Shown piece by piece: positions 5,557-60,229 of a DNA stretch of 64,000 nucleotides; within the stretch, counting starts at the first letter, position 1; each line of letters opens with the position of its first letter. Position numbers and translations under genes: made by a program. This DNA is from Pseudomonadota bacterium (GTDB lineage Bacteria > Pseudomonadota > Alphaproteobacteria > Acetobacterales > Acetobacteraceae). Below the pieces are notes generated by a model. The model was given only the letters and a program-made list of their open reading frames with translations. It made no database searches and was not told the DNA's origin. The stretch is from assembly GCA_021801255.1 (NCBI GenBank), contig JAJYYH010000002.1, forward strand, positions 1-64,000, given 5' to 3'.

Positions 5557-6560
5557 CGCCGCACAGTTTTTTCTGTCTCGACGGGCATACCTGCGGCAAT
5601 CCGGTGCGCCTCGTCGCCGGGGGCGCGCCCATGCTCGCGGGGGCGACGATGAGCGCGCGGCGAGCCGATTTCATTGCGCGCCACGACTGGGTGCGCCGCG
5701 CCCTGATGTTCGAGCCGCGCGGGCACGATATCATGTCGGGTGCCATTCTCTACCCGCCGCTCCGCCCCGATTGCGACGCCGCGATCCTTTATATCGAGGT
5801 CTCGGGCTGCCTGCCGATGTGCGGGCATGGCACCATCGGCACCGTTACCATGGCGCTCGAACACGGCCTCATCACGCCGGCGCGGGAAGGCGTGGTGGCG
5901 CTCGATGCCCCGGCGGGGCGCGTCGTCGCCGAATATGAACGCGACGGACGCTTCATCGCGCGCGTGCGCCTGCACAACGTGCCCTCCTATCTCGCGGCGA
6001 GCGAACTGCGCATCGATTGCCCAGGCGTGGGCGAGATCGTGCTCGATGTCGCCTATGGCGGCAATTTCTATGCGATCATCGAGAAACAGCCGAATTATGC
6101 CGGGCTGGAGACATTTTCTCCGGGCGATATTCTCCGCCTGAGCCCGCTGGTGCGCGACGCGGTGAACGCGGCGGCCGAAATCGTCCACCCCGAGGATCCG
6201 ACCATCCGCGGCGTGAGCCATGTGCTCTGGGCCGGTGCGCCGCGCGATCCGCGCGCCGATGCCCGCAACGCGGTTTTCTACGGCACCCGCGCCATCGACC
6301 GCTCGCCCTGCGGCACCGGCACCTCGGCGCGCATGGCGCAACTGGTCGCCCAGGGGCGGCTTGCGGTGGGCGGCGAGTTCATCCATGAAAGCATCATCGG
6401 GAGCCTCTTTGAGGGCCGCGTCGAGGCAGCAACGACGCTCGCCGGCCTTCCCGCCATCCGGCCGAGCGTTGCCGGCTGGGCGCGGCTCTATGGGCTCAAT
6501 ACGATTTTCGTCGATCCGCGCGACCCGTTCTGGGCCGGGTTTCAGCTCGGCGAAGGGTGA
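5553..6560 (+). CDS. Proline racemase-family enzyme, probable 4-hydroxyproline 2-epimerase
   Basis: A 335-residue proline racemase superfamily member. Both catalytic cysteines are present: Cys90 in [13 protein letters not shown] and Cys253 in [13 protein letters not shown]. Two cysteines indicate racemase or epimerase chemistry; trans-3-hydroxyproline dehydratases have the first Cys replaced. The surrounding residues match bacterial 4-hydroxyproline 2-epimerases, which interconvert trans-4-hydroxy-L-proline and cis-4-hydroxy-D-proline in the cytoplasm. The usual hydroxyproline catabolic neighbours (D-hydroxyproline oxidase, deaminase) are absent, and coupling to murA by a four-base overlap is unusual. 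A role with another amino acid, or in cell-wall D-amino acid metabolism, cannot be excluded. Confidence 0.85.
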
Positions 6561-6568
6561 TCGCGGGC

Positions 6569-6676
6569 GCTCAGAGCCTGAAAATCCATCGAACTTGAAA
6601 AAGAATGCCCTCTGAAAACATTGATTTTTTCTCGGTCGATTCTGGGGCACGAGGGCATTCTTTTTCAAACTCTCAG
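6569..6676 (+). repeat. Palindromic interspersed element, family A, copy 2
   Basis: Near-identical to copy 1 but inverted. It contains a perfect 18-bp inverted repeat, TTGAAAAAGAATGCCCTC at 6595-6612 and its complement at 6651-6668, around a 38-nt loop. The right end CTCAG (6672-6676) contains the stop codon of the leftward marC-like gene. The element sits between convergent genes, where it could act as a bidirectional terminator. Confidence 0.9.
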
Positions 6677-7341
6677 TGCGCGAGGAGCGGCTTGAGCGCC
6701 GCCGCCACACCATCGAGAGTGATCTGGGTGCCGATGCAAAGGAGAACAAAGGCGATCAGCCGGCTCATGGTGCGCACCCCGGCGGGGCCGAGAAAGGCCA
6801 TCAGCCGGTCGGCGGAGCGGTAGCTGATCCAGATCACCCCCGCGAGCAGCACGGCGGCCAGCGAGGCGCCGAGAAAAAACCCGCCGACCGCGAGTTCGCC
6901 CGCCGGCCGCTCCGAGGCAAAGGCGATGGCCACCGAAATCGTCCCCGGCCCGGTGGTGAGCGGCATGGTGAGCGGGAAAAAGGCGATATCCTCGGCCGCG
7001 CCCTCCGGCGCCGATTGCGGCTCGGCGCGCGGCTCCTCCTTGTGTTCCGGCCCCGAGAGCAGCGCCCAGGCGCGCACCGCGATCACCAGGCCGCCGGCGA
7101 TGCGCAGGGCCGCCAGCGTGATGCCGAAAAAGGCGAGCGCATAGGTACCGCCCCAGAGCGAGCCGAGCATCACCAGCACGGAATACATGCCCACCCGCCC
7201 AGCCAGCCAAGTTCGCTGGGCGGGGCTCCGATCGGCAGTCGCCTCGCGAAAGATCAGTGCGCCCCCGATCGGGTTGATGATCGAGAACAGTGCCGGGAAG
7301 GCGAGGAGGAAGCTGTTGGTCGCGGCGTTCCAGAATTCCAT
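6673..7341 (-). CDS. MarC-family inner-membrane protein
   Basis: A multi-pass integral membrane protein of about 222 residues. The N-terminal helix contains the INPIGGALIF segment that marks MarC/UPF0056 proteins, and about six hydrophobic helices follow, with a hydrophilic loop rich in Glu, Pro and Ala in the middle (SGPEHKEEPRAEPQ). Members of the family have no firmly established transport substrate; the original link of E. coli MarC to multiple antibiotic resistance was not upheld. ATG 7341 gives the usual MarC N-terminus, but its nearest purine-rich motif is unusually distant, so ATG 7368 is an alternative. The stop codon lies in palindromic element copy 2. Confidence 0.8.
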   Translation of the reverse strand: MEFWNAATNSFLLAFPALFSIINPIGGALIFREATADRSPAQRTWLAGRVGMYSVLVMLGSLWGGTYALAFFGITLAALRIAGGLVIAVRAWALLSGPEHKEEPRAEPQSAPEGAAEDIAFFPLTMPLTTGPGTISVAIAFASERPAGELAVGGFFLGASLAAVLLAGVIWISYRSADRLMAFLGPAGVRTMSRLIAFVLLCIGTQITLDGVAAALKPLLAH

Positions 7342-7411
7342 GGGCCGATGGTAGGGATGTCCCTCCATCCTGGCCAGACGCCACTCGCCTCAACTCCCCG
7401 TGGGCGGCGCC

Positions 7412-7852
7412 TCAGGCGCGCGATTTGAGCAGGTCGCGGATCTCCTCGAGCAGGACCTCCGAGCGCGGTGGCGGCGCCGGGGCGGGACGGCGCTGGAGCC
7501 GCGACAAGGCCTTCACGACCCAGAAAATCGCGAAACTCACGATCAGGAAATTAATCACCGCGTTGAGAAACAAGCCGACATTGAGCGTCACCGCCCCGGC
7601 TTTTTGGGCGGCCTCGAGGGTTGCTTCGTGATCGCCTCTGAGTGTGAAAAAGACATTGGAAAAATCGATGCCGCCGACGATCAGCCCGAGCACCGGATTG
7701 AGCAGATCCTTGACCAGACTGCTGACGATGCCGGTGAAGGCGGCGCCGATGACAATACCGACCGCGAGATCGACGACATTGCCACGCATGATGAAGGCGC
7801 GGAACTCATCAACCCAGCCCGGCCGCTTCGGCACGGTGACATTGAGCGCCAT
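7412..7852 (-). CDS. mscL: Large-conductance mechanosensitive channel
   Basis: A homopentameric inner-membrane channel that opens at near-lytic membrane tension to release osmolytes on hypo-osmotic shock. The 146-residue product has the typical MscL order: FRAFIMRGNVVDLAVGIVIGAAF (N-terminal helix and TM1 pore-lining segment), a periplasmic loop, TM2 (VINFLIVSFAIFWVVKAL), and a C-terminal charged helix LLEEIRDLLKSR. ATG 7852 is preceded by a GGGGGGCG ribosome binding site; the longer frame adds an unrelated leader. It stands alone between marC and the aldo/keto reductase gene, all three on the same strand. Confidence 0.95.
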   Translation of the reverse strand: MALNVTVPKRPGWVDEFRAFIMRGNVVDLAVGIVIGAAFTGIVSSLVKDLLNPVLGLIVGGIDFSNVFFTLRGDHEATLEAAQKAGAVTLNVGLFLNAVINFLIVSFAIFWVVKALSRLQRRPAPAPPPRSEVLLEEIRDLLKSRA

Positions 7853-7890
7853 TACGCCCCCCGTTCGCTCTTGTTGCGGGGCAGAGACTA

Positions 7891-8724
7891 TCACACGTGC
7901 GCGGGTTTGTCCCACGCCGGCGCGAAGCCGGGGTTGACGCAGCGCTGATCCTTGGGCAGGGCGGCGATAGCGGCGCGGTCGCTGTCATCCAGCGCCACCC
8001 CGAAGGCCGCGAGGTTGGCACTCTGGCTCTCGCGCCGCGCGGCTTTCGGGATGGCGGCAACGCCCGGCTGATCGAGCAGCCATTTCAGGGCGATCTGTGC
8101 CGGACTGGCGCCATGTTTTTTGGCGATCGCCGCGAGGACCGGGTGCTCCGCCAGCCGTCCCTGGGCCAGCGGGCAATAGGCGGTGACGAACAACCCCTTC
8201 GCGCGGGCATAATCCAGTACCGCCGACTGGTCGAGCAGCACATGATATTCGACCTGATCGCACACGATCGGCGCGCGCACTTCCTCGACGGCGCGCCGGA
8301 GAAGGGCGGTCGGGAAATTGGACACCCCGATATGGCGCACCAATCCCGCCTCGCGCACCGCCATCAGCGTCTCGAGGGAAGCCGGCAAATCCATCTCGGG
8401 CGCCGGCCAATGGATGAGGTAGAGATCGACATAATCAAGCCGCAGCGCCTTGAGGCTCGCCGCCAGGGCGCGCTTGATGCCGTCGGGCGAAAGATGCTCC
8501 CACCACACCTTGGTGGTGACGTGCAGCTCGCCGCGCGGAATGCCCGCCGCCGCGATCGCGGCACCCACCGCGTCCTCATTGCCATACATCTCGGCGGTAT
8601 CGAGATGGCGATAGCCCAACGCCAGCGCCTGCTCGACCGCGCTTCGGCAGGCCGCGCCCTGCATGCGCCAGGTGCCGAGGCCAAGCTTGTCCATCCGCAA
8701 GCCCTGGGCGGTGATCTGTTCCAT
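7891..8724 (-). CDS. Aldo/keto reductase
   Basis: An NADPH-dependent aldo/keto reductase of 277 residues, a cytoplasmic TIM barrel. The conserved catalytic Asp and Tyr are in GYRHLDTAEMYGNE, the Lys in VTTKVWWEHL, and the substrate His in LIHWPAP. The cofactor segment IPKAARRES replaces the more usual IPKS. The start at ATG 8724 is supported by GGGAGAAGG just upstream. Best matches by memory are the 2,5-diketo-D-gluconate reductase-like group, but the substrate cannot be read from sequence. It is 19 bp from the WD40 gene and probably co-transcribed with the upstream CobW/WD40 pair. Confidence 0.88.
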   Translation of the reverse strand: MEQITAQGLRMDKLGLGTWRMQGAACRSAVEQALALGYRHLDTAEMYGNEDAVGAAIAAAGIPRGELHVTTKVWWEHLSPDGIKRALAASLKALRLDYVDLYLIHWPAPEMDLPASLETLMAVREAGLVRHIGVSNFPTALLRRAVEEVRAPIVCDQVEYHVLLDQSAVLDYARAKGLFVTAYCPLAQGRLAEHPVLAAIAKKHGASPAQIALKWLLDQPGVAAIPKAARRESQSANLAAFGVALDDSDRAAIAALPKDQRCVNPGFAPAWDKPAHV

Positions 8725-8743
8725 CGCAACCTTCTCCCGAAAT

Positions 8744-9778
8744 CTAGCGTTTGGAAAAATCGATGAGTGCGGCGACACCACTCTCGGTGCCGATGGCGAG
8801 AAACGCGCCATCTGGGCTCCAGGCAAGCGCCGAGACCGGGCCGCGCCCCGGCCCGCAAACCGGCAGGATCCGATGCGAGTCGATATCGGCAAGCACGACC
8901 AGGCCATCGGCGAAGCCGGCCGCGACCGCCTCGTGCACGGGATGGCAGGCAACGTACGTGCACATCACGTTGTCACCGCCGGCCAATTCGACCGGCGGCT
9001 TGCCCATCGGCCCACCGCCCGTGAAGGGCCACAGCACCACGGTATCGGCCCCCGAGGTCGCCAGCCACTTGCCGCCACGGCTGAAGGAAAGCGCTGCCGT
9101 CTTGGCCGGGTAGCCGCTCATGCGCATGTGTTCATTGCTGGAAAGCCGCCAGCCATGCAGCGCATTTTCCTGCATCGCCGTCACCACCACGTCGCCATCC
9201 GGCGAAAACGCCAGCGCGGTGTGGCTGCCTTTCCACTCCAGCCGGCGCGGATTGGCGGATTTGGAGGCGACGAACCACAGGCTGACACCATTGTAATGCG
9301 CCGTTGCCACCCGCTTGCCCTTGGCGTCAAACGCCAATCCGGTGATCGCGGAGGGGTGATCGAGCACCTTGAGCGGCGCGCCCTGGGCATCGAACAGATG
9401 GAGTTTTTTCCCCACCGCTGCCGCCATGACGCCGCTTGCGTGGCTCGCCACATGCTCGACCCACTTCATGCCGAAGCGAGCGATCTCGTGCTTTTCTCCA
9501 GCGCTGTTCACCGCCATGAACGCGCCGTCATCGCCGCCCGAGAGAAAACCCTCGCGCGTCACCGCCGGGGCCAGCGCCAAGACCGCGCCGTCATGCGCCG
9601 CCACGCGCCGCCACGTGCTGGGCTCGGCGCGCGCCACCAGCGCGATCGAGCCATCGCCCAAGGCAAACGCCGCCGCCGCGCCATCGCGCGAGAACACCGT
9701 GGCGACCACAAAGGCGTCGAGCTGCTGCTCGACGCCGCGCTCGGCAAGCAATTGATCGGGATTGGCGAGCCCGCTCAT
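8744..9778 (-). CDS. WD40 repeat protein
   Basis: A 344-residue protein made almost entirely of WD40-type repeats: recurring units such as ITGLAFDAKGKRVATAHYNG, AALSFSRGGKWLATSG and VSALAWSPDGAFLAIGTESG, consistent with one seven-bladed propeller and no catalytic domain. No signal peptide is present, so it is likely a cytoplasmic scaffold. ATG 9778 lies seven bases after the stop of the CobW-family GTPase gene, so the two are almost certainly one operon. I recall WD40 and CobW/G3E genes paired in other alphaproteobacteria, suggesting that the propeller works with the GTPase in metal handling, but the role is undetermined. Confidence 0.85.
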   Translation of the reverse strand: MSGLANPDQLLAERGVEQQLDAFVVATVFSRDGAAAAFALGDGSIALVARAEPSTWRRVAAHDGAVLALAPAVTREGFLSGGDDGAFMAVNSAGEKHEIARFGMKWVEHVASHASGVMAAAVGKKLHLFDAQGAPLKVLDHPSAITGLAFDAKGKRVATAHYNGVSLWFVASKSANPRRLEWKGSHTALAFSPDGDVVVTAMQENALHGWRLSSNEHMRMSGYPAKTAALSFSRGGKWLATSGADTVVLWPFTGGGPMGKPPVELAGGDNVMCTYVACHPVHEAVAAGFADGLVVLADIDSHRILPVCGPGRGPVSALAWSPDGAFLAIGTESGVAALIDFSKR

Positions 9779-40438: not shown

Positions 40439-41365
40439 ATGCGGATTCTTGGACGGCGATGCGCGGTATTGCTCGCGACGCTCAGCTTTCTCTTCGCGCC
40501 AGCCCAGGTGATGTGGGCCGGAAGGGCTCTGGCGCAGGCGGCCGGGGCGCAGGCGGCCGGCGAGGCTTCGGCGGTGCATGCGCCGACCCCCTGGGAGATG
40601 GCCATGCAGCCGGGGTTCAGCCCGGTGAAGCGCGATATCATAGACCTGCACGACCTCGTGCTGGTGATCATCACCCTGATCACCCTGTTCGTGGGCGCGC
40701 TGCTGATCTGGGTCATGCTGCGCTACAGCGCCAAGCGCAATCCGGACCCGAGCCGCGTCAGCCACAACACCTTGATCGAGGTTCTGTGGACGGTGTTGCC
40801 GATCCTGATCCTGGTGGTCATCGCCATCCCATCCTTCCGGCTGGTCTATTATGAGGATCGCACCCACGATCCGGCGCTGACCATCAAGGTCACGGGACAC
40901 CAGTGGTATTGGGAATACACCTATCCCGACCAGGGGAATCTCGACATCGAGAGTCGCATCATTCCCGATAGCCAGCTCAAGCCCGGCCAGATGCGGCTTC
41001 TGGAAGTGGATAATCCGCTGGTGGTGCCGGTCGGCAAGGACATCCGTATCCTCACCACCAGTTCGGACGTGATCCATAGCTTCTTCATCCCGAGCCTGGG
41101 CGTGCAGCGCTATGCCATTCCCGGCCGGACCATTGAAACCTGGGTGAGGGTCGATAAGCCGGGTAGATTTTATGGCGAATGCAACCAGGTATGTGGCATG
41201 AACCACAGCCAGATGCCGATCGTGGTCGAAGCGCTCAGCGAGCAGGATTTCAAATCCTGGACGGAAAAGGCGAAGGCGGCGCAGCAGACCTCGGAGAATG
41301 GGATTTCGGCACCGGAAACCCCGCGCTTCGCCGCGGCGGGCGGCTTGCTGGATCAGGCACGCTGA
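40439..41365 (+). CDS. ctaC: Cytochrome c oxidase subunit II
   Basis: Receives electrons from cytochrome c at the CuA centre of the aa3-type oxidase. The 308-residue product has a signal peptide (CAVLLATLSFLFAPAQVMWA), two transmembrane helices (VLVIITLITLFVGALLIWVM and EVLWTVLPILILVVIAIPSF), the aromatic GHQWYWEYTYPD electron-entry motif, and the CuA site ending GECNQVCGMNHSQMP with ligands Cys248, Cys252, His256 and Met259. The residue usually Glu in CSEIC-type motifs is Gln250. There is no fused cytochrome c domain. It is the first gene of the oxidase operon. Confidence 0.95.
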   Translation: MRILGRRCAVLLATLSFLFAPAQVMWAGRALAQAAGAQAAGEASAVHAPTPWEMAMQPGFSPVKRDIIDLHDLVLVIITLITLFVGALLIWVMLRYSAKRNPDPSRVSHNTLIEVLWTVLPILILVVIAIPSFRLVYYEDRTHDPALTIKVTGHQWYWEYTYPDQGNLDIESRIIPDSQLKPGQMRLLEVDNPLVVPVGKDIRILTTSSDVIHSFFIPSLGVQRYAIPGRTIETWVRVDKPGRFYGECNQVCGMNHSQMPIVVEALSEQDFKSWTEKAKAAQQTSENGISAPETPRFAAAGGLLDQAR

Positions 41366-41426
41366 TCGATAAAGCGCGGCGCTGGTCCCGCCCCGCGGGC
41401 AGCGCCTTTCGAGGAGTTGAGCAACG

Positions 41427-43025
41427 ATGGCAAGTGCGACCACCCACGACCACGCCCACGGCGAGCATCACGGGCATTATCCGGGATTCGCGGCGCGCTG
41501 GTTGTTCAGCACCAACCATAAGGATATCGGCACGCTCTATCTGATCTACGCCGCGGTCGCCTCGGTGATTGGTGGCGGCCTGTCGATGATCATGCGCGCG
41601 CAATTGATGTATCCCGGCCAGCATATCGTCGAGAACGGCCAGATCTGGAACACCATCGTCACCGCGCACGGCTTGATCATGATTTTCCTGGTGGTCATGC
41701 CGGCGTTGATCGGCGGCTTCGGCAACTGGTTCGTGCCGCTGTTGATCGGCGCCCCCGACATGGCGTTTCCGCGCCTCAACAACATCAGCTTCTGGCTGCT
41801 GGTGCCGGCCCTGCTATTGATCTGCACCGGGTTGCTGATGGGCGAATCGGGTTCCGGCTGGACGCTCTATCCACCGCTCTCGAACGCCATGTACGAACCC
41901 GGACCGGGGATGGATTTCACCCTGTTCGCGCTCCACCTCGCCGGCATCTCATCGCTGCTCGGCGCCATCAACTTCATCACCACGATTTTCAACATGCGCG
42001 CTCCCGGCATGACGCTGCATAAGATGCCGCTTTTCGTGTGGAGCATACTCATCACCGCTTTTCTGCTCCTGCTTTCGATCCCGGTGCTCGCCGGCGCCAT
42101 CACCATGCTGATCACCGACCGTAATTTCGGCACGACGTTCTTCGATCCCCAGGGCGGCGGCGATCCCGTGCTATTCCAACATCTGTTCTGGTTCTTCGGT
42201 CATCCCGAAGTCTACATCATGATCCTGCCGGCCTTCGGGATCATCAGCCACATCATCTCCACCTTCAGCCATAAGCCGATCTTCGGCTATCTCGGCATGG
42301 CCTATGCCATGGTCGCGATCGGCGTGGTGGGCTTCATGGTGTGGGCGCATCACATGTTCGTCTCCGGCATGGACGTCGATACGCGGGCCTTTTTCATGGC
42401 CGCGACGCTGGTGATCGCGGTGCCGACGGGCGTGAAGATCTTTTCCTGGATCGCCACCATGTGGGGTGGGTCGATCGAGATGACGGTGCCGATGCTGTGG
42501 GCGGTCGGCTTCATCTTCGTCTTCACCATCGGCGGCGTCACCGGCATCGTGCTCGCCAATGCCAGCCTCGATCAGATCCTGCACAACACCTATTACGTGA
42601 TCGCGCATTTCCACTACGTCCTCTCGCTCGGCGCCATATTCGGCATCTTTGCGGGATTTTATTACTGGATCGGCAAGATGACCGGGAAACCTTTCCCGGA
42701 ATTCTGGGCCAAGGTGCATTTCTGGATGTTCTTCGTCGGCGTCAACCTGACCTTCTTCCCGATGCATTTCCTCGGGCTCGCGGGCATGCCGCGCCGCTAT
42801 CCCGACTATCCGGAAGCCTTCGCCGGGTGGAATTTCGTCTCCTCGATCGGCGCCTATATCGCGGGGGCGTCGGCGCTCGTCTTTTTCTACGTCGTGTTCC
42901 GTACCTTCACCTCGAAGGAGCACCTCGCCGATAATTACTGGGGTGCCGGAGCGACGACGCTGGAATGGACGGTGAGTTCGCCGCCGCCCTTCCATACCTA
43001 CGAGGAACTGCCGCAAATTCGCTGA
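41427..43025 (+). CDS. ctaD: Cytochrome c oxidase subunit I
   Basis: The heme a/a3-CuB catalytic subunit, 532 residues with twelve transmembrane helices. [18 protein letters not shown] and [10 protein letters not shown] carry the first heme ligand region; [20 protein letters not shown] holds the CuB His, the cross-linked Tyr and the D-channel Glu; MVWAHHMF supplies two further CuB His; [10 protein letters not shown] holds both heme ligands. The D-channel Asp is in [13 protein letters not shown]. The combination marks an A1-type heme-copper oxidase. The His-rich N-terminus ([14 protein letters not shown]) may bind metal. Confidence 0.97.
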
Positions 43026-43055
43026 GCAAACCAGAGGACAGCGACCAGAGGGGCC

Positions 43056-44018
43056 ATGAGCGACGCGGTCTGGAGTGCGCAAGGAGCGGTCGGGCCCGAA
43101 GGCGGGGAGGTTTTCTCCCCGCCCCATTGCTCGTCCGCGACCGTTGGTGACTGGATCAGTCTGCTCAAGCCGCGGGTCATCCTGCTCGTGGTGTTCACCG
43201 GCTTGGTCGGGCTTTGGGTGGCGCCGGGGCGGCTCAACCCGGTTTTGGCGATCGCCGCCATTCTCGCGATCGCGGTCGGCGCGGGCGCGGCGGGCGCGAT
43301 CAATATGTGGTATGACCGCGATATCGATACGCTGATGCGACGCACCCGGCGCCGGCCGATTCCCGCCGGGCGCATCGCACCCGACGAGGCGCTGAGTTTC
43401 GGCATCGCGCTGGCCGCCGCCTCGGTGGGGGTGCTGGGGCTCGCCACTAATTTCGCCGCCGCCCTGGTACTCGCGGTCTCGATCGCCTTCTACGTCGTCG
43501 TCTATACCATGTGGCTGAAGCGGCGGACGCCGCAGAACATTGTGATCGGCGGCGCCGCCGGCGCCTTTCCGCCGCTGATCGGCTGGGTCGCGGTGACCGG
43601 CCACGTCGCCCCGCTGCCGCTGGTGCTGTTCGCCATCATCTTCTTCTGGACGCCGCCGCATTTCTGGTCGCTCTCGCTCTATGCCCATGGCGACTACGCC
43701 CGCGCTGGCGTTCCGATGCTGCCGGTGGTGGCGGGCGCGCGGGCGACGCGGCGGCATATTCTCGGCTATACCCTGCTGCTGGTGCCACTGACGCTGCTGC
43801 CCTGGGGCTTGGGCGAGGCGGGGGTGATCTATGCCATTGCCGCCACCGTGCTGGGCCTCGGCTTTCTCCTCGGGGCCGGGCGGATCATGCGGGACGGTCA
43901 AGATGCCAGCGGGCGCAGCCTTTCCGGCGATGCCCCGGCGCGGGCGACGTTCCGCTATTCCATTCTCTATCTCTTCGCGCTGTTCGCGGCGCTTGCCGTC
44001 GATCATCTGGTGGGCTGA
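43056..44018 (+). CDS. ctaB: Protoheme IX farnesyltransferase
   Basis: Converts heme b to heme o by farnesylation, the first step of heme a synthesis for this oxidase. The 320-residue UbiA-type membrane protein has the Asp-rich motif [12 protein letters not shown] in the cytoplasmic loop after helix 2, the second [20 protein letters not shown] region, and about nine hydrophobic helices. It is inside the cox operon 31 bp after ctaD. ctaA (heme A synthase) is not in this window. Confidence 0.95.
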
Positions 44019-44021
44019 GCG

Positions 44022-44177
44022 ATGCCCGGAACATCCCCCTCGGAGCCGCCGGCGGTGATTGCGCGGGCCGAGCTTGAACGGCGCCGTCGGACGCGCAACT
44101 GGGCGCTTTTCGTCGTGCTGTTCGCCCTCGCGGGGCTGTTCTTCGCGATCACCATCGCCAAGATGACGCAGCATTGA
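44022..44177 (+). CDS. CoxF-like small membrane protein
   Basis: A 51-residue protein: a charged N-terminal helix (AELERRRRTRN) followed by a single transmembrane helix (WALFVVLFALAGLFFAITI) and a short KMTQH tail. Its place directly after ctaB (three bases) and shape match the small CoxF-like proteins found in alphaproteobacterial cytochrome oxidase operons before cox11. Cox11/CtaG itself is missing here. It is probably an assembly factor or accessory subunit of the oxidase; the name is by position and shape only. Confidence 0.75.
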   Translation: MPGTSPSEPPAVIARAELERRRRTRNWALFVVLFALAGLFFAITIAKMTQH

Positions 44178-44303
44178 CGCGGTTTATCCCTCTGCCCGCG
44201 CTCGCCGATCGCCCGACCCTTGAACGCGCGGCGCTTTTGATGATGATGATGATGCGGTTGACCCACCGGGCGGGTTGCCCGGCAGAGACAAGACGGACAA
44301 GGC

Positions 44304-45152
44304 ATGAGCACTGACACACACGCCGCCACGATTCCGGCCAGTTCCGGCCTGAAGCAGCCCTATCACTTGGTCGATCCCAGCCCGTGGCCTATTGCCGGCG
44401 CGCTCGGCGGCGGATTGACCGTGCTCGGAATCGTCTTTGTCGCGCATTATCACAACTGGGCGCTACTGATCCTGGGCCTGGCCGCGGTGCTGGCGGTGAT
44501 GTTTTTCTGGTGGCGCGATGTCCTCAAGGAAAGCCACACGCCGGGGCTGCATAGCCCGGTGGTGCAGCTTGGCCTGCGCTATGGCATGATGTTCTTCATC
44601 ACCAGCGAGGTGATGTTTTTCGTGGCCTTCTTCTGGGCCTTTTTTAATTTCGCCCTGTTCCCCGAGCATGTCGCTTTTGCCAAGGTGATGATGTGGCCGC
44701 CCGAGGGCATCCGTACCTTCGATCCCTTCCACATCCCCTTCCTCAATACTATGATCCTGCTGCTCTCGGGCACCACCGTCACCTGGGCGCATCACAGCCT
44801 GCTCGAGAACGACCGCAAGGGACTGGTTGTGGGCCTGGCCTTGACGGTGCTGCTCGGCCTCAGCTTCACCGGCTTTCAGGCGCTTGAATATTCGCACGCG
44901 CCGTTCCATTTCGGCGGCACCATCTACCCCTCCGTGTTCTTCCTCGCCACCGGCTTCCACGGCTTCCATGTCATTGTCGGCACGCTGTTCCTGATCGTCT
45001 GCTTCCTCCGCGCCCGCGCCGGTGATTTCACGCCCGAGCGTCATTTCGGCCTCGAGGCGGCCGCTTGGTATTGGCATTTCGTCGATGTGGTCTGGCTGTT
45101 TCTGTTCGTGTGCATCTATTGGTGGGGGGCGTCGGCGGTTTCCGCCGGCTAG
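44304..45152 (+). CDS. ctaE: Cytochrome c oxidase subunit III
   Basis: A 282-residue subunit with seven transmembrane helices. KQPYHLVDPSPWPI at the N-terminus, WWRDVLKE, FITSEVMFFVAFFWAFF with the conserved Glu, TVTWAHHSLLEN, and the C-terminal WYWHFVDVVWLFLFVCIYWWG are all diagnostic of bacterial/mitochondrial subunit III, which stabilises proton uptake by subunit I. It lies 126 bp after the CoxF-like gene across a gap containing a (GAT)5 run and a small CCGGGC/GCCCGG hairpin, where cox11 would be expected. Confidence 0.96.
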   Translation: MSTDTHAATIPASSGLKQPYHLVDPSPWPIAGALGGGLTVLGIVFVAHYHNWALLILGLAAVLAVMFFWWRDVLKESHTPGLHSPVVQLGLRYGMMFFITSEVMFFVAFFWAFFNFALFPEHVAFAKVMMWPPEGIRTFDPFHIPFLNTMILLLSGTTVTWAHHSLLENDRKGLVVGLALTVLLGLSFTGFQALEYSHAPFHFGGTIYPSVFFLATGFHGFHVIVGTLFLIVCFLRARAGDFTPERHFGLEAAAWYWHFVDVVWLFLFVCIYWWGASAVSAG

Positions 45153-48026: not shown

Positions 48027-49019
48027 ATGGAACACCCAGCGGGTGAAGCGGATGAGGTTGCGCTTCGGGTTGATTTCGACCGCCGCCTGAAGCTGGAATT
48101 CCACGGCGGCCGGATCACCTCCGACGCCGGATGGCTCGCTTACCGCGAACTGGATGACGCGCTCGGGCTGACCGATGTGGCGGGGGCGGCGCTGTCGGAA
48201 TGCCGTCGTGGCAAGAACACCCGGCACCTGCTGAGCGGCCTGCTGCGCCAGCCGGTGTTCGGCCGCCTCGCCGGCTACGCGGATGTGAACGATGCCGACC
48301 TCGTTGCGCAGAATCTCATTCGCCTGGCGCAGTTCGCGGTTCGCGGTTCTCCCGCTCCAGCGCTTTCATCCGATCGCGCTCATCGCTGGTCAGCCCAGGC
48401 CGTAGCCCACGGTCCCGCTCCGCCTGGCGGACCCAACCTCGAAGGGTTTCGCCCGTACAACCAATCTTCGCTGCGATCGCGCCGATCGCCTCCCATTCAG
48501 AGGCGTGCTCCTTCGCATGCTCCAATACCATGCGGACCGCACGCTCGCGGACCTCAGGCGAATATTTCTTCGATGTCTTTCGCTTCTCCATAGCTTCATC
48601 CTCTCAAGAGTTGGAGCCTCCGGCAAATCCGGGGCGGTTCAACCCGGCCAGCCGAGCGCGTAGGGGCGTTCTACGACCATCGCGGCACGGCGGAGGAGCA
48701 CATCAAAGAGGGCAAGAACGCCGTGACCTGCACACGGCTGTCCTGCCACCGCTTCGCCGCCAACGCCGTTCGGCTGCACCTGCACGCGCTGGCCTACAAC
48801 CTCGCCAACTTCCGGCACACCCTGAGCTTGCCCGACGCGGTGAAGCACCGGTCGCTCGCCAGTCTGCGCGACCGGGTGGTCAAGATCGGCGCCAGGATCG
48901 TCCGCCACGGGCGCTCGATCACGTTCCAGATGGCGGAGGTGATGGTGCCGCGCACGCTGTTCCAGCAGATACGCGATGCCATCGCGATGCTCCGTCCGCC
49001 GCCGCCGGCTCGGTGTTGA
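48027..49019 (+). pseudogene. IS1380-family transposase, interrupted and inactive
   Basis: The N-terminal part (48027-48299) reads VDFDRRLKLEFHGG, ITSDAGWLAYRELDDALGLT, LLRQPVFGRLAGYADVND, a characteristic IS1380 transposase start. The C-terminal part resumes near 48,645 (GAFYDHRGTAEEHIKEGKNA) and ends LFQQIRDAIAMLRPPPPARC at 49019. The catalytic middle is missing and replaced by an IS3-type fragment on the opposite strand. No intact frame exists, so it is a remnant that marks the left border of the quinoprotein island. Confidence 0.8.
48300..48640 (-). mobile_element. IS3-family fragment with disrupted orfA, nested in IS1380
   Basis: About 340 bp. It reads leftward from an IS end TGAACCGCCCCGG (complement of 48628-48640) into an OrfA start at 48591: [56 protein letters not shown] tandem duplication of the seven bases CCGCGAA near 48,340 shifts the frame before the usual ENRELRQAN; after the duplication the expected codons (CTGCGCCAGGCGAATGAG) resume. 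orfB and the other IS end are absent, so it is immobile. Confidence 0.75.
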
Positions 49020-49266: not shown

Positions 49267-50952
49267 ATGTCGAGTCACATAAAAACCGCACTTGTCGCTG
49301 CCGCCATGCTTGGCGCGGCGACAGGTCTGGCGCTTGCGGGCGATGCGCCCAATACGGCCTGGCCGATGTCGGGCCATGACTATGCCAACCAGCGCTACAG
49401 CGCTCTTTCGGAAATAAATGGCAGCAATGTCGGGGGCTTGAAACTCGCTTATACGCTGCAACTTGGCTCGCTGCGTTCGAACGAAATGACGCCGCTCGTC
49501 ATCGGCGATACGATGTTTGTCTCGACCTCCTGGGGGCCGAAATTTGTCTATGCGCTCGATGCCAGGACCGGCGTCCTCAAATGGCGTTACGAGCCTGACA
49601 TTCCTGATGACGTGCTGCAATACGGGTGCTGCGACGTGAACAGCCGCGGCGTCGCCTATGCCGATGGCAAGCTCTTCGTTGGCCGTCTCGACGGCAAACT
49701 GGTGGCACTCGATGCCGCGACCGGCAAAGAGATCTGGACCGCCAATGTCGTTGACTACAAGCAAGGCTCGGTGATCACCTCGCCGCCGCTGGTGGTAAAG
49801 AATCTCGTCATCACCGGATTTGGCGGCGGCGAATACGGCGCGCGCGGCTATCTTTCGGCCTATGACGCGGCCTCCGGCAAACTGCTGTGGAAGACCTGGA
49901 CGGTGCCGGGGCCGGGCGAGGCCGGCAACGATAGCTGGAAGGGGGATAGCTGGCAGCATGGCGGCGGCGCGCCGTGGCTGGTCGGCTCCTATGATCCTAA
50001 GACCAACACGGTGTTCTGGGGCACCAGCAACCCCAGCCCGTGGAATTCGATTGTTCGTAGCACGGGGAATGGAGATTACGGTAGGCTGCGCAATCTCTAT
50101 ACGGCGAGCACGCTGGCGCTTGATGCGGATACCGGTCATATCAAGTGGTATGTTCAATCCACGCCGGAAGATGCGTGGGATTACGACGGGGTCAATGAAA
50201 TCGTTCTTGCCGATCTTGCCATGCAAGACGGGACGACGCCAGTTTACATGAAAGCCGATCGCAACGGCTTTTTCTACGTCGTGAATCGTGAGACGGGCAA
50301 AGTGCTTTCGGCCGAGAAATTTGTTCCGACAAACTGGGCCGAGCGCATCGATCTTGCAACGGCAACTCCGGTCGAGGTTGCGGATAAGCGGCCGGGGCCT
50401 AATCATCCGGCCAAGGATATCTGTCCGAATCTTCTCGGCGGCAAAAACTGGCAGCCGATGTCGTTCAGCCCGCAGACTGGGCTTGTCTATATCCCGTCTA
50501 ATAACTTGTGCATGGATTGGTCGGTCAGCAATGTCGATTATCATCGCGGCGTGTTCTATCTTGGTGCAGAATTCCCGACCAAACCGGGACCGGGGGGCTA
50601 CCTTGGTGCCCTGCTCGCCTGGGATCCAGTGAAACAGAAGGAAGTCTGGAGCTTCAAGGAGCCGCTGCCGTTCAATGGCGGAACACTCGCGACCGCCGGC
50701 AAGCTGGTTTTCGCAGGTGACATGGAAGGCAATTTCCGTGCCTTCGACGCACAGGACGGAAAAGTGCTCTGGGCAAAGAATCTCGGCAGTGGCATTGGCG
50801 CGGGGCCGATGTCTTTCAGTGTCGATGGCAAGCAATATATCGCCATTGTCGTCGGTCGCACCGCCTCTATCCCGGCCTTCCTGGGTGATGTCGGCAAGAA
50901 GATGTTGCAGATGACGCCTGAAGGTGGGGCCTTGTTTGTCTTCTCGCTCTGA
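49267..50952 (+). CDS. PQQ-dependent alcohol dehydrogenase, lanthanide-type (XoxF/ExaF-like)
   Basis: A 561-residue periplasmic quinoprotein that oxidises a primary alcohol using PQQ. A signal peptide (LVAAAMLGAATGLALAGDA) is followed by an eight-bladed propeller with W-docking repeats. The adjacent-cysteine disulfide is Cys121-Cys122 (YGCCDVNSRG). Metal/PQQ ligands are Glu189 (GFGGGEYGARG), Asn255 (GTSNPSPWN) and catalytic Asp305 with Asp307 (DAWDYDGVNE); the extra Asp two residues on is the known mark of lanthanide-dependent enzymes, where calcium MxaF types have Ala. No heme domain is present. Start ATG 49267 follows AAAAGGGAGG. It is operonic with the fused binding protein-cytochrome c gene. 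Methanol versus ethanol preference cannot be decided. Confidence 0.9.
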   Translation: MSSHIKTALVAAAMLGAATGLALAGDAPNTAWPMSGHDYANQRYSALSEINGSNVGGLKLAYTLQLGSLRSNEMTPLVIGDTMFVSTSWGPKFVYALDARTGVLKWRYEPDIPDDVLQYGCCDVNSRGVAYADGKLFVGRLDGKLVALDAATGKEIWTANVVDYKQGSVITSPPLVVKNLVITGFGGGEYGARGYLSAYDAASGKLLWKTWTVPGPGEAGNDSWKGDSWQHGGGAPWLVGSYDPKTNTVFWGTSNPSPWNSIVRSTGNGDYGRLRNLYTASTLALDADTGHIKWYVQSTPEDAWDYDGVNEIVLADLAMQDGTTPVYMKADRNGFFYVVNRETGKVLSAEKFVPTNWAERIDLATATPVEVADKRPGPNHPAKDICPNLLGGKNWQPMSFSPQTGLVYIPSNNLCMDWSVSNVDYHRGVFYLGAEFPTKPGPGGYLGALLAWDPVKQKEVWSFKEPLPFNGGTLATAGKLVFAGDMEGNFRAFDAQDGKVLWAKNLGSGIGAGPMSFSVDGKQYIAIVVGRTASIPAFLGDVGKKMLQMTPEGGALFVFSL

Positions 50953-51015: not shown

Positions 51016-52134
51016 ATGGTGAGCGGTTTCCTCTCGCGCATCTGGCAACGCACGCGCTTTCCGGCGTTTGCCGTCGCGGTTTTTGGGGTGTTGTGCGTCC
51101 TGTCTTTTATCGCGCCGGCCTGGGCAGGGGACGAGACACCAGCGTTTCGCGCCTGCCTTGATCCCGATAATCTGCCTTTCAGCGCGCGCGCCGATGCCGC
51201 GGGTGGGCAGGATCGCGGCTATTATGTCGAACTAGCCAAGGCGATCGCGGCCGATCTTGGGCGTCCTTTCGAGCCGGTGTGGTATGTGATGCGCTTTGCT
51301 CGGCATGCCGTCGGCGAGGAGCTGCTTTCCGGCAAATGCGATGCCTTCTTCGCGCTGCCGCAGATGCCCGGCGCGGCGGGGCCGCAGGTGATTTTCTCAC
51401 AGCCGATCCTGCGCGAAAACTATGCGCTCGTTACCGAACCTGGACACGAGATCAGGCGGCTTGACGATCTCGATGGCCACAAGGTCGCAGTGCTGTTTTC
51501 GTCGCCCCCGCAGAGCTGGCTCGCCGAACGCGGCGGCGTTAGCGTGGTTACGGAGATGGATTCGGATGGCGCCATGGTGGCGCTGGCGGAGGGTAAGGTG
51601 GACGTGGCGATGATCTGGGGGCCGAGCGCGGGATTCTTGAACCAGAGCCGCTACCATGGGCGTTTCGCCGTTGTTCCCCTCGCCGGGCCTGGCATGGAGT
51701 TCGAGGCGGCGATTGGCTTCGATGCGCGCCATGGCGATCTCCGTGACGAGGTCGATCAGGCGCTCGTCCGTGAGAAAAAACTGGAAAGCACCTTGCTCGA
51801 CAAATATGGCTTTCCGCGCGGCGCGCCGATCAGGCTTTCGATGGCTGTACTCCGCTATCGGCTCGTCGCGGACAATCAGCCCGGCAATTCCGGAAGCGGC
51901 CGCGAGATCATCAACGCCTATTGCGCGCATTGCCATGGCGTCGATGCGCGCGCGCCGGCGACGCGGCAGAATCTTCACCTTCTCCAGCAGCGCTATGGCG
52001 ATAATATGGATCAGGTTTTTATGACCACGGTGCATCACGGGCGGCCGGACAAAGGCATGCCGAACTGGTCTGGGGTCTTGACCGAAGACCAGTTCAAGGA
52101 TGTTCTCGCCTATCTGAAGAGTTCGCAGGATTGA
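51016..52134 (+). CDS. Fused XoxJ-like periplasmic binding protein and XoxG-like cytochrome c
   Basis: A 372-residue two-domain periplasmic protein. After a signal peptide (FAVAVFGVLCVLSFIAPAWA), residues of about 40-275 form a type II periplasmic-binding-protein domain like those of MxaJ/XoxJ: FRACLDPDNLPFSA, KAIAADLGRPFEPVWY, LLSGKCDAFFALPQ, DGAMVALAEGKVDVAMIWG. Residues of about 290-370 form a class I cytochrome c with heme motif CAHCH (Cys303-His307) and axial Met348 in DKGMPNW. In known systems XoxJ and XoxG are separate; here they are one chain, next to the quinoprotein that would donate electrons to it. Start ATG 51016 has TTGGAG upstream. Confidence 0.87.
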   Translation: MVSGFLSRIWQRTRFPAFAVAVFGVLCVLSFIAPAWAGDETPAFRACLDPDNLPFSARADAAGGQDRGYYVELAKAIAADLGRPFEPVWYVMRFARHAVGEELLSGKCDAFFALPQMPGAAGPQVIFSQPILRENYALVTEPGHEIRRLDDLDGHKVAVLFSSPPQSWLAERGGVSVVTEMDSDGAMVALAEGKVDVAMIWGPSAGFLNQSRYHGRFAVVPLAGPGMEFEAAIGFDARHGDLRDEVDQALVREKKLESTLLDKYGFPRGAPIRLSMAVLRYRLVADNQPGNSGSGREIINAYCAHCHGVDARAPATRQNLHLLQQRYGDNMDQVFMTTVHHGRPDKGMPNWSGVLTEDQFKDVLAYLKSSQD

Positions 52135-52173: not shown

Positions 52174-53239
52174 TTGCTCTGATGCATTCTACTGATTCAC
52201 ATTGGCCGGCCGACGTGCGAATCTGGCTGGATGGCACAGACAGTATGGGTGCTGGTGAGCGGGCGGGACAGGCAGCGGTTGGAGGCGATCACGTCGGACC
52301 GTAGGCGCCAACGGAAACATATCGAGCGGGCGCGGGTCGTGCTTGCTTCGGTTGGTGGTGGACCGGTGCAGCAAACTGCGCTGCAACTCGGCATCAGCCG
52401 CCCGATGGTCTGGCGCTGGCAGCAACGCGTTGCCGAAGAGGGCGTGTACGGGTTGCTGCGCGACAAGACACGCAAGCCCGGCAAGCCGCCGATCCCGGCC
52501 GAGACCGTAGCGCGCATGGTCGCGCTGACCTGCGCCGATCCGCCGCACCAGGCAACGCATTGGACCGGGCGTGCCATGGCCAAGGCGGCTGGCATCTCGT
52601 TGCGCCCGGTGCAGCGCATCCGGGAGGCGCATCACCTCCAGCCGCGTCGCGTGTGCACGTTCAAGCGGTCGCGCGATCCGCGGTTCGCCGACAAACTCGT
52701 CGACATCGTCGGCCTCTACCTTGATCCGCCGGCGCACGCGGTGGTGCTGTCGATCGACGAGAAGAGCCAAATCCAGGCACTCGACCGTACCCAGCCGGGG
52801 TTGCCGATGAAAGCAGGCCGTTGCGGCACCATGACTGACGATTACAAGCGCCATCGGCACCAGGAGTTCATCCGCTTCCTCAACGCCATCGAGCGCGACG
52901 TGCCGGCCGGCAAGCTGATCGAGGCGGTGGTCGACAACTACGCCACCCACAAGCATCCCAAGATCCGCGAGTGGCTGGCGCGGCATCCGCGCTGGACCTT
53001 CCATTTCACGCCCACCTCCGGGTCGTGGCTGAACGCGGTCGAGAACTTCTTCTCGACGCTGACGCGCAAACACATCCGTCGCGGCAGCTTTCATTCGATC
53101 GTCGACCTCCAAGCCGCCATCAACCGCTATCTCGCCAAACACAAAGCCGAGCCCAAGCCCTTCGTCTGGAGGGCCTCCGCCGCCTCGATCCTCGCCAAGC
53201 TCGACCAACTGCCTGAACCAGCCGAATGAGTCAGAGCAG
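52174..53239 (+). mobile_element. IS630-family insertion sequence with terminal repeats and TA duplication
   Basis: About 1,066 bp. The left end reads TTGCTCTGATGCATTC and the right end, read inward, CTGCTCTGACTCATTC, continuing with matching CTG-TTCA, giving imperfect inverted repeats of about 26 bp. Each end is directly flanked by TA (52172-52173 and 53240-53241), as expected for IS630/Tc1-mariner insertion. It forms the right border of the quinoprotein island. Confidence 0.85.
52231..53229 (+). CDS. IS630 transposase with an internal in-frame deletion
   Basis: A 332-residue DDE transposase. It has an N-terminal helix-turn-helix (ALQLGISRPMVWRWQQRV), a linker, first catalytic Asp in LSIDEKSQIQALDR, second Asp in AVVDNYATHKHPK, and the Glu in GSWLNAVENFFSTL. 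Between GTMTDDYKRH and RHQEFIRFLNAIE the segment of about 22-24 residues normally present in this family (GTTTLFAALN... up to QRH) is missing while the frame is kept. The deletion removes core strands between the first two Asp residues, so the enzyme is probably inactive. Confidence 0.88.
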   Translation: MAQTVWVLVSGRDRQRLEAITSDRRRQRKHIERARVVLASVGGGPVQQTALQLGISRPMVWRWQQRVAEEGVYGLLRDKTRKPGKPPIPAETVARMVALTCADPPHQATHWTGRAMAKAAGISLRPVQRIREAHHLQPRRVCTFKRSRDPRFADKLVDIVGLYLDPPAHAVVLSIDEKSQIQALDRTQPGLPMKAGRCGTMTDDYKRHRHQEFIRFLNAIERDVPAGKLIEAVVDNYATHKHPKIREWLARHPRWTFHFTPTSGSWLNAVENFFSTLTRKHIRRGSFHSIVDLQAAINRYLAKHKAEPKPFVWRASAASILAKLDQLPEPAE

Positions 53240-59158: not shown

Positions 59159-60229
59159 ATGGCGTTCGCCGATCTTTATGACATCAAGGGTACCGACCCC
59201 GCCTGGACGGTGCCGCAGGATTTCACCGCGGTATTCAACTGGGAGTTCGCGCCCGAGCGCTCGCGCCTGCTCGGCCTCTATGAGCGCGGCAAGACCATGC
59301 AGTGGAATGCCACCGACCGCCTCGACTGGAGCCTGGAACTCGACCCCGAGGATCCGCAGCAACTACCGCCCGATGCGCTGCCGATCAACGCCGCGCCGTT
59401 TTTCCAAAACCTTTCGCGCCAGGAGCAGATGACGATCCGCCGCCACCATCAGGCCTGGAGCACCTCGCAATTCCTCCACGGCGAGCAGGGGGCGTTGATC
59501 TGCGCCGCGAAAATCGTCCAGCAGGTGCCCGATCTCGACGCCAAGTTCTACGCCGCGACCCAGGTGATGGACGAGGCGCGCCATGTCGAGGTCTATAAGA
59601 AACTGCTGGAAAAATTCGGCCTCGCCTATCCGATGACGGCGCCGCTCAAGCAGCTTCTGGAGCAGGTGCTGCGCGATCCCCGCTGGGACATGACCTATCT
59701 CGGCATGCAGGTGGTGATCGAGGGCCTCGCCCTCGCCGCTTTCGCGCGCATCCGCGATCAGGCGCAAAACCCGCTCGCCGCCGCGGTGAACGCCTATGTC
59801 ATGGAGGACGAGGCCCGCCATGTCGCGTTCGGGCGGCTGTCGCTGCGGCAGTATTACCCGGAACTCAGCCAGGCGGAGCGCGACGAGCGCGAGGAATTCC
59901 TCGTCGAGGCCTGCTATCTCATGCGCGATCGCTTCGACGCCGTCGAACTCTGGCGCCATCTCGATCTGCCGGTCGAGGCGTGTCTCGATCATCTGCACAA
60001 CAGCGGCGCGCTGGCGTCCTTCCGCACCCGGCTCTTCTCGCGCATCGTGCCGACGGTGAAGGATATCGGGCTTTGGGGCGCGGTGGCGCGGAAGGGCTAT
60101 GCCCAGATGGGGGTGCTTGACTTCGCCAATGTCGATCTCGAGGCAATGGCCGAGAACGATGAGAAGGTGGCCAGCGCCTTCGACGCCCGCCGCCGCCATG
60201 TCGATGCGACGATCGCCGCCGGGGCGTAG
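59159..60229 (+). CDS. Ferritin-like diiron protein, R2-like
   Basis: A 356-residue soluble protein with the four-helix carboxylate-bridged diiron arrangement of ribonucleotide reductase R2 and related oxidases. Iron ligands appear as Glu in HGEQGALICAAK, Glu and His in MDEARHVEVY, Glu in VIEGLALAAF, and Glu and His in MEDEARHVAFG. No nrdA or nrdF partner is near and the Tyr radical position cannot be assigned, so it is not a canonical R2. It could be a diiron oxygenase; its substrate is unknown. RBS AAGGGAG lies upstream of ATG 59159. Confidence 0.85.
   Translation: MAFADLYDIKGTDPAWTVPQDFTAVFNWEFAPERSRLLGLYERGKTMQWNATDRLDWSLELDPEDPQQLPPDALPINAAPFFQNLSRQEQMTIRRHHQAWSTSQFLHGEQGALICAAKIVQQVPDLDAKFYAATQVMDEARHVEVYKKLLEKFGLAYPMTAPLKQLLEQVLRDPRWDMTYLGMQVVIEGLALAAFARIRDQAQNPLAAAVNAYVMEDEARHVAFGRLSLRQYYPELSQAERDEREEFLVEACYLMRDRFDAVELWRHLDLPVEACLDHLHNSGALASFRTRLFSRIVPTVKDIGLWGAVARKGYAQMGVLDFANVDLEAMAENDEKVASAFDARRRHVDATIAAGA

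Follow-up and report, generated by a model that had tools for sequence, protein, structure and literature searches.

The window analyzed here, a stretch of 64,000 nucleotides, comes from a member of the Acetobacteraceae whose genome of about 3.2 Mb is distributed over 67 contigs. On the forward strand of this window, an open frame of 372 codons (51016-52134, ATG to TGA) starts 63 bp past the stop codon of a quinoprotein gene (49267-50952) and encodes a product of 372 residues. The features of this gene pair are as follows.

49267..50952, + strand: PQQ quinoprotein alcohol dehydrogenase, 561 amino acids, with the ligands Glu, Asn and DxD and an adjacent-Cys motif (TIGR03075, 4mae, tree)
51016..52134, + strand: fusion gene, encoding a signal peptide, an MxaJ/XoxJ-like domain, a linker and a cytochrome c
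51016..51129, + strand: Sec-type signal peptide, residues 1 to ~38, with probable cleavage between AWA and GDE (read from the sequence)
51142..51819, + strand: MxaJ/XoxJ-like periplasmic-binding domain, residues 43-268, with Cys47/Cys108 and a W201-G-P motif (TIGR03871, XoxJ 6onp, motifs)
51820..51891, + strand: linker, residues ~269-292 (AlphaFold2 pLDDT below 50 at 278-286; length variable among relatives)
51892..52131, + strand: class I cytochrome c, residues 293-372, with CAHCH at 303-307 and axial Met348 (PF13442/PF00034, invariant ligands, c6/CcoP-like)

An earlier sequence-only reading had described this frame as unbroken, with a single signal peptide, a binding domain and a class I cytochrome c, and this domain make-up was confirmed. 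Pfam searches placed SBP_bac_3 at residues 45-254 (E 5e-8) and Cytochrome_CBB3/Cytochrom_C (PF13442/PF00034) at residues 294-370 (E 8e-10 and 6e-6, respectively), all above the gathering scores. The heme ligands C303, C306, H307 and M348, the last of which belongs to a GMPNW motif, were invariant in 83 of 83 aligned fusions. In an AlphaFold2 model built from 48 sequences (mean pLDDT of 85), two confident domains were separated by a disordered linker at residues 278-286, and a helix of low confidence was found at residues 19-31 in the signal peptide region. Among relatives of the fusion, the linker measures 28 to 96 residues. This variation makes a flexible tether likelier than a rigid complex, and the suggestion that the XoxJ-like domain docks next to the cytochrome on the enzyme is only weakly constrained by it.

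Could the frame result from a sequencing or assembly error joining two genes? This possibility, raised in the sequence-only reading, was ruled out by the recurrence of the architecture. A second fusion, 58% identical, is found beside a quinoprotein gene on contig C19 of the same genome, one full copy is present in a sister species, and another species has a fragment. When 84,980 species genomes were scanned, 80 loci were recovered. Most of these carry the full fusion, and the loci belong to Acetobacteraceae, Methylocella tundrae, Burkholderiales, Rokubacteria and a few other taxa. The domain-order search with a check for adjacent PQQ dehydrogenases, which had been proposed along with the sequence-only reading, gave a clear answer: in nearly all of the ~80 loci where the contig reaches far enough, the gene immediately upstream, in the same orientation, encodes a quinoprotein. 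By profile search, the fusion was present in about 17 of 397 Acetobacteraceae genomes and in 6 of 398 sampled genomes of the phylum, its own genome included. A first scan of genome contigs with the single protein as the query had given no match. Annotated plasmid records yielded one weak, unannotated place with both domains and no informative names. Most of the upstream neighbor ORFs picked by clustering in Burkholderiales had no Pfam match and are probably wrong-frame ORFs. One metagenome-assembled contig labeled Bordetella parapertussis (L095) grouped with the freshwater fusion loci of Burkholderiales, and its label looks doubtful.

The product of the upstream gene was then assigned to a family. 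It scored 655 bits against TIGR03075, exceeding the cut-off of 480, and its best PDB match was XoxF2 (4mae). All four lanthanide ligand columns (Glu172, Asn256, Asp299 and Asp301 in 4mae numbering) are conserved, in agreement with the earlier description of a lanthanide-type quinoprotein gene 63 bp ahead of the fusion. The lanthanide-type DxD is kept in nearly all fusion-linked quinoproteins. Judging from these residues, the fusion-linked quinoprotein is probably lanthanide dependent. The presence of pqqB in the genome points to PQQ synthesis. A tree was constructed that took in XoxF2, XoxF5, MxaF and XoxF3-type sequences and left out XoxF1 and XoxF4 references; in this tree, the window enzyme was placed outside the XoxF/MxaF clade. 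The fusion-linked quinoproteins of the main family formed one clade (100/100), sister to XoxF plus MxaF and apart from PedH. The window enzyme is not the XoxF5 of this organism, because the true XoxF5, together with a separate XoxJ, sits on contig C65 and belongs to a separate clade. The presence of this XoxF5-XoxJ pair also makes the methylotroph setting, in which the gene pair had been viewed, doubtful. Acidobacterial quinoproteins have been typed as XoxF3 in the literature (PMC10875860). An identity of the window enzyme with XoxF3 is unlikely, since the acidobacterial XoxF3-type group fell elsewhere in the tree, together with another Methylocella tundrae gene.

In Methylocella tundrae, seven such quinoprotein genes are present. 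Two belong to the fusion clade, two group with XoxF5, one joins the acidobacterial (XoxF3-type) group and the remaining two fall elsewhere. Both of those in the fusion clade carry the lanthanide Asp and a fusion. A further class, group 9 PQQ-ADH, reportedly goes back to Keltjens 2014. For Methylocella silvestris, two genes of the "group 9 PQQ-ADH" type have been reported, which carry the lanthanide Asp and have no known function, and this species grows on ethanol without a recognized PQQ ethanol dehydrogenase (PMC9291206). M. tundrae likewise has exactly two quinoproteins of the window clade with the Asp. By elimination, group 9 PQQ-ADH is perhaps the fusion-linked quinoprotein clade.

We next considered the binding domain, which the sequence-only reading had assigned to the MxaJ/XoxJ class. 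The likeness to XoxJ was borne out, whereas membership in the class proper was not. The closest PDB match by sequence was XoxJ of Methylobacterium (6onp). In a Foldseek search with the model, XoxJ gave a target-normalized TM score of 0.77 and MxaJ one of 0.67, with many other periplasmic-binding proteins scoring alike; the structure comparison did not place the domain away from MxaJ/XoxJ, which had been named as an outcome that would undo the assignment. The Cys47/Cys108 pair, of a kind common to XoxJ, is kept in 82 of 83 fusions, and Trp201, part of the WGP motif also common to XoxJ, in all 83. However, the score against the MoxJ-type model TIGR03871 of NCBIfam (89.7 bits, E 2.1e-25) was below the curated cut-off of 212.15, and that against TIGR03870 (36.8 bits) was below the cut-off of 258.1. 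The fused binding domains of the main family formed their own clade (99/99), beside and outside the XoxJ clade (100/100). Because of these scores and this placement, a function in common with MxaJ/XoxJ can be proposed for the domain only by analogy.

In amino-acid-binding proteins, an Asp grips the amino group of the ligand. The corresponding position is Trp in 83 of 83 fusions, and the position of the carboxylate-binding Arg is mostly Met or Lys, with Arg not conserved. Like MxaJ and XoxJ, the domain resembles a binding protein that has given up its former function. Another explanation is that it still binds a small ligand (an alcohol, a lanthanide complex or an amino acid) that is to be taken up or sensed, the cytochrome having been joined to it only incidentally. 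Its type II periplasmic-binding fold would suit such a role, and glutamine- and arginine-binding proteins are among its top fold matches. With both signature ligand positions replaced, no transporter gene beside the fusion gene in the window and a near-constant link to a quinoprotein, we regard this explanation as very improbable.

The cytochrome had been called XoxG-like. The NCBIfam model for MoxG/XoxG (TIGR03872) did not match the fusion, nor did it match anywhere in this genome, and no solved XoxG or cytochrome cL chain appeared at E<1 among the 60 PDB matches listed for the fusion cytochrome. An identity with XoxG/cytochrome cL was ruled out on these grounds. The matches obtained were to CcoP, cytochrome c6, PedF-type c550 (weakly) and the cytochrome domain of ADH-IIG (E 5e-4). 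Since the matches are of this kind and none is to cL/XoxG, "XoxG-like" is, as far as sequence comparison can tell, a statement about function and not about family. In that functional sense, the fusion cytochrome would accept electrons from the adjacent quinoprotein.

Some members of the same quinoprotein clade have only one of the two domains nearby. A free cytochrome close to the fused one, without a binding domain, was found at L133, L135, L141, L142 and Rhodopila L037 (198-2493), and a free binding domain only was found at L089 and L131. These split forms within one quinoprotein clade indicate that both domains serve that enzyme and that either can stand alone. They also indicate that tethering is not essential, since one of the two domains is missing from some modules. 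The Rhodopila contig L037 carries two nearby quinoprotein modules, the one with the free cytochrome and another, at 6185-9095, with a fusion. Among near relatives, the identity of the cytochrome (79-86%) tracks that of the quinoprotein (85-88%), whereas the binding domain drifts (52-61%).

These observations bear on how the two domains may divide their work. MxaJ and XoxJ have been proposed to bind the partly folded apo-enzyme and to aid the insertion of PQQ and metal (review, PMC12997753), and a solved MxaF-MxaJ pair exists (9ism/9iso). Together with the adjacent-Cys motif of the enzyme, they allow a scheme in which the binding domain is mainly a factor for PQQ and metal insertion, the cytochrome attached to it does redox work at that step (for example, reoxidizing PQQ or the adjacent-Cys pair) and the bulk of the electrons goes to another cytochrome. 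We consider this scheme improbable, because a cytochrome alone follows the quinoprotein in the same clade, as a plain acceptor would, and because the identity values of the cytochrome stay nearer to those of the quinoprotein than do those of the binding domain.

The same domain order was also found outside the main clade. In the deltaproteobacterial loci L100 and L101, the binding domain groups with true XoxJ and the enzyme (L101) lies on the XoxF/MxaF side. In the rokubacterial loci L099 and L051 (second module), the quinoprotein lies on the PedH side. As the main clade, L100/L101 and L099/L051 carry different quinoproteins, these sequences indicate at least three independent fusions of a binding protein and a cytochrome in this order, not counting the published XoxG:J of Methylacidiphilum. 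Such repetition argues that there is an advantage in keeping the two partners close to each other. Of two unrelated quinoprotein-fusion modules that lie near one another on the L051 contig (6125-9131 and 10830-13732), one belongs to the main clade and the other to the PedH side. The L099 fusion (7857-9206) has two CxxCH motifs and consists of a binding domain and two cytochrome units.

To approach the substrate, the gene neighborhoods were compared. At the C19 locus (L021, 654-5622), the genes for ExaC, DUF779, quinoprotein and fusion follow one another in one direction, and the ExaC protein scored 964.9 bits against an equivalog cut-off of 900, identifying an acetaldehyde dehydrogenase. The description of the gene pair as a minimal two-gene module is true of the window but does not extend to this four-gene copy. 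In Rhodopila, quinoprotein and fusion come first, then ExaC and DUF779, followed by a PQQ-alcohol-dehydrogenase ABC binding protein, a beta-propeller protein, an ATPase and a permease. Judged by gene content, the setting of the C19 copy and of Rhodopila is of an alcohol-to-acid type, of the ped/exa kind, and not a methanol cluster. The ExaC operon of the second copy and the ped-type clusters of relatives make it likely that the substrates are C2+ alcohols (ethanol or another C2+ primary alcohol), not methanol.

The window copy has no ExaC neighbor. A DDE_Tnp_1_4 transposase fragment (48027-48590) lies on its left and an IS630-like transposase gene (52231-53229) on its right, and the quinoprotein-fusion pair may have moved in between an M32 peptidase gene and an MFS gene. 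Farther upstream, some 6 to 10 kb from the pair, are the genes for cytochrome c oxidase subunits II and I (COX2 and COX1) and their neighbors (40439-45152). An AurF-like di-iron N-oxygenase family protein (PF11583) is encoded at 59159-60229 of the window. The flanking transposase sequences and the missing ExaC could mean that the window copy is a decaying duplicate, an IS-flanked relict or a rarely expressed gene pair, the working system being the C19 ExaC-DUF779-quinoprotein-fusion operon. However, both window genes are full length and retain all key residues, and the stop-free quinoprotein is 84-85% identical to its C19 paralogue, while the binding domains are only 52% identical. Decay of the window copy is therefore, in our judgment, not probable.

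Taking these results together, we favor, with some reserve, a reading in which the fusion is a tethered docking or maturation factor and electron acceptor for the lanthanide-type alcohol dehydrogenase encoded upstream, with a C2+ primary alcohol as the most likely substrate. The fusion would be a periplasmic two-domain partner of the quinoprotein. Its MxaJ/XoxJ-like scaffold, which has lost the amino-acid-binding residues, would probably bind the quinoprotein and either aid its uptake of PQQ and metal or hold the enzyme. The small cytochrome c would take electrons from reduced PQQ and pass them on in the direction of a terminal oxidase. The linker, being flexible, would give the cytochrome access to the active-site face without detachment of the first domain, and the local concentration of the acceptor would rise. 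Ethanol or another C2+ primary alcohol would be converted into the aldehyde, which an ExaC-type dehydrogenase would oxidize onward. Besides the analogy-based link to MxaJ/XoxJ and the modules with only one of the two domains, further points speak against this tethered-partner reading. Should MxaJ-type proteins work exclusively on enzyme that is still incompletely folded, there would be no evident need for a cytochrome to be permanently joined to them then, and the transposase-flanked window copy, without ExaC, could be a relict.

A XoxG:J protein, or cytochrome cGJ, of Methylacidiphilum is said to have been reported in Versantvoort 2019. The fusion of XoxG and XoxJ in this genus is published, and its product accepts electrons from XoxF (PMC8498564, PMC6688271, PMC8170126). 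Like the present family, it joins a cytochrome c acceptor and a XoxJ-type domain in one polypeptide beside a lanthanide quinoprotein. However, its order, as read from the name xoxG:J (PMC6688271), is cytochrome followed by a truncated XoxJ, whereas a full-length XoxJ-like domain comes first here. The Methylacidiphilum system has XoxF as its enzyme and a cytochrome described as XoxG/cL-like, along with a separate xoxJ; here, the enzyme clade and the cytochrome family are different. The idea of such a fusion is therefore not unprecedented, and the present family differs in the type of cytochrome, the clade of the enzyme and, judging by the published name, the domain order. In our literature search on xoxG/xoxJ/mxaJ fusions, outside which lay Keltjens 2014, Versantvoort 2019 and the papers on MxaJ assembly, the Methylacidiphilum case was the only one found and the present family was not described.

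Other known systems share parts of this design. The XoxF/XoxG/XoxJ and MxaF/MxaG/MxaJ systems also have a quinoprotein, a MxaJ/XoxJ-like protein and a dedicated cytochrome c encoded by adjacent genes on the same strand, but here the last two are fused, the quinoprotein is from a sister clade, the cytochrome is not of the cL type and the neighbors in relatives indicate C2+ alcohols. The ped/exa clusters (PedH/PedE, the PedF cytochrome c550, PedG and ExaC) resemble our loci in having an alcohol quinoprotein, a small cytochrome c, a PedG-type binding protein, ExaC and a PQQ-associated ABC set. However, PedF and PedG are separate proteins, and PedH belongs to another clade than the fusion-linked quinoproteins. 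Type II quinohemoprotein alcohol dehydrogenases likewise provide a PQQ alcohol dehydrogenase with a built-in small cytochrome c, but it is fused to the dehydrogenase itself, whereas here it is fused to the accessory protein and the enzyme is encoded by a separate ORF (49267-50952 versus 51016-52134).

A broader view can be put forward, to which we give slightly less than even weight. The fusion-linked quinoproteins would form a distinct and widespread lanthanide-type system for C2+ alcohols, probably group 9 PQQ-ADH, in which the maturation or docking factor and the acceptor are one tethered protein; since tethering of this kind would have arisen three or more times in this order, in addition to the Methylacidiphilum case, the partners would act on the enzyme together and not in turn. 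The role of MxaJ/XoxJ and its possible joint action with the cytochrome, a long-standing question, becomes testable in one protein, for which the split versions provide natural controls. The fusion-linked quinoproteins are a common group, present in bacteria of soil, freshwater and acid water. For this lanthanide-type group, which may be group 9, the fusion family gives a probable role in the oxidation of C2+ alcohols, by way of the ExaC neighbors, and an electron acceptor.
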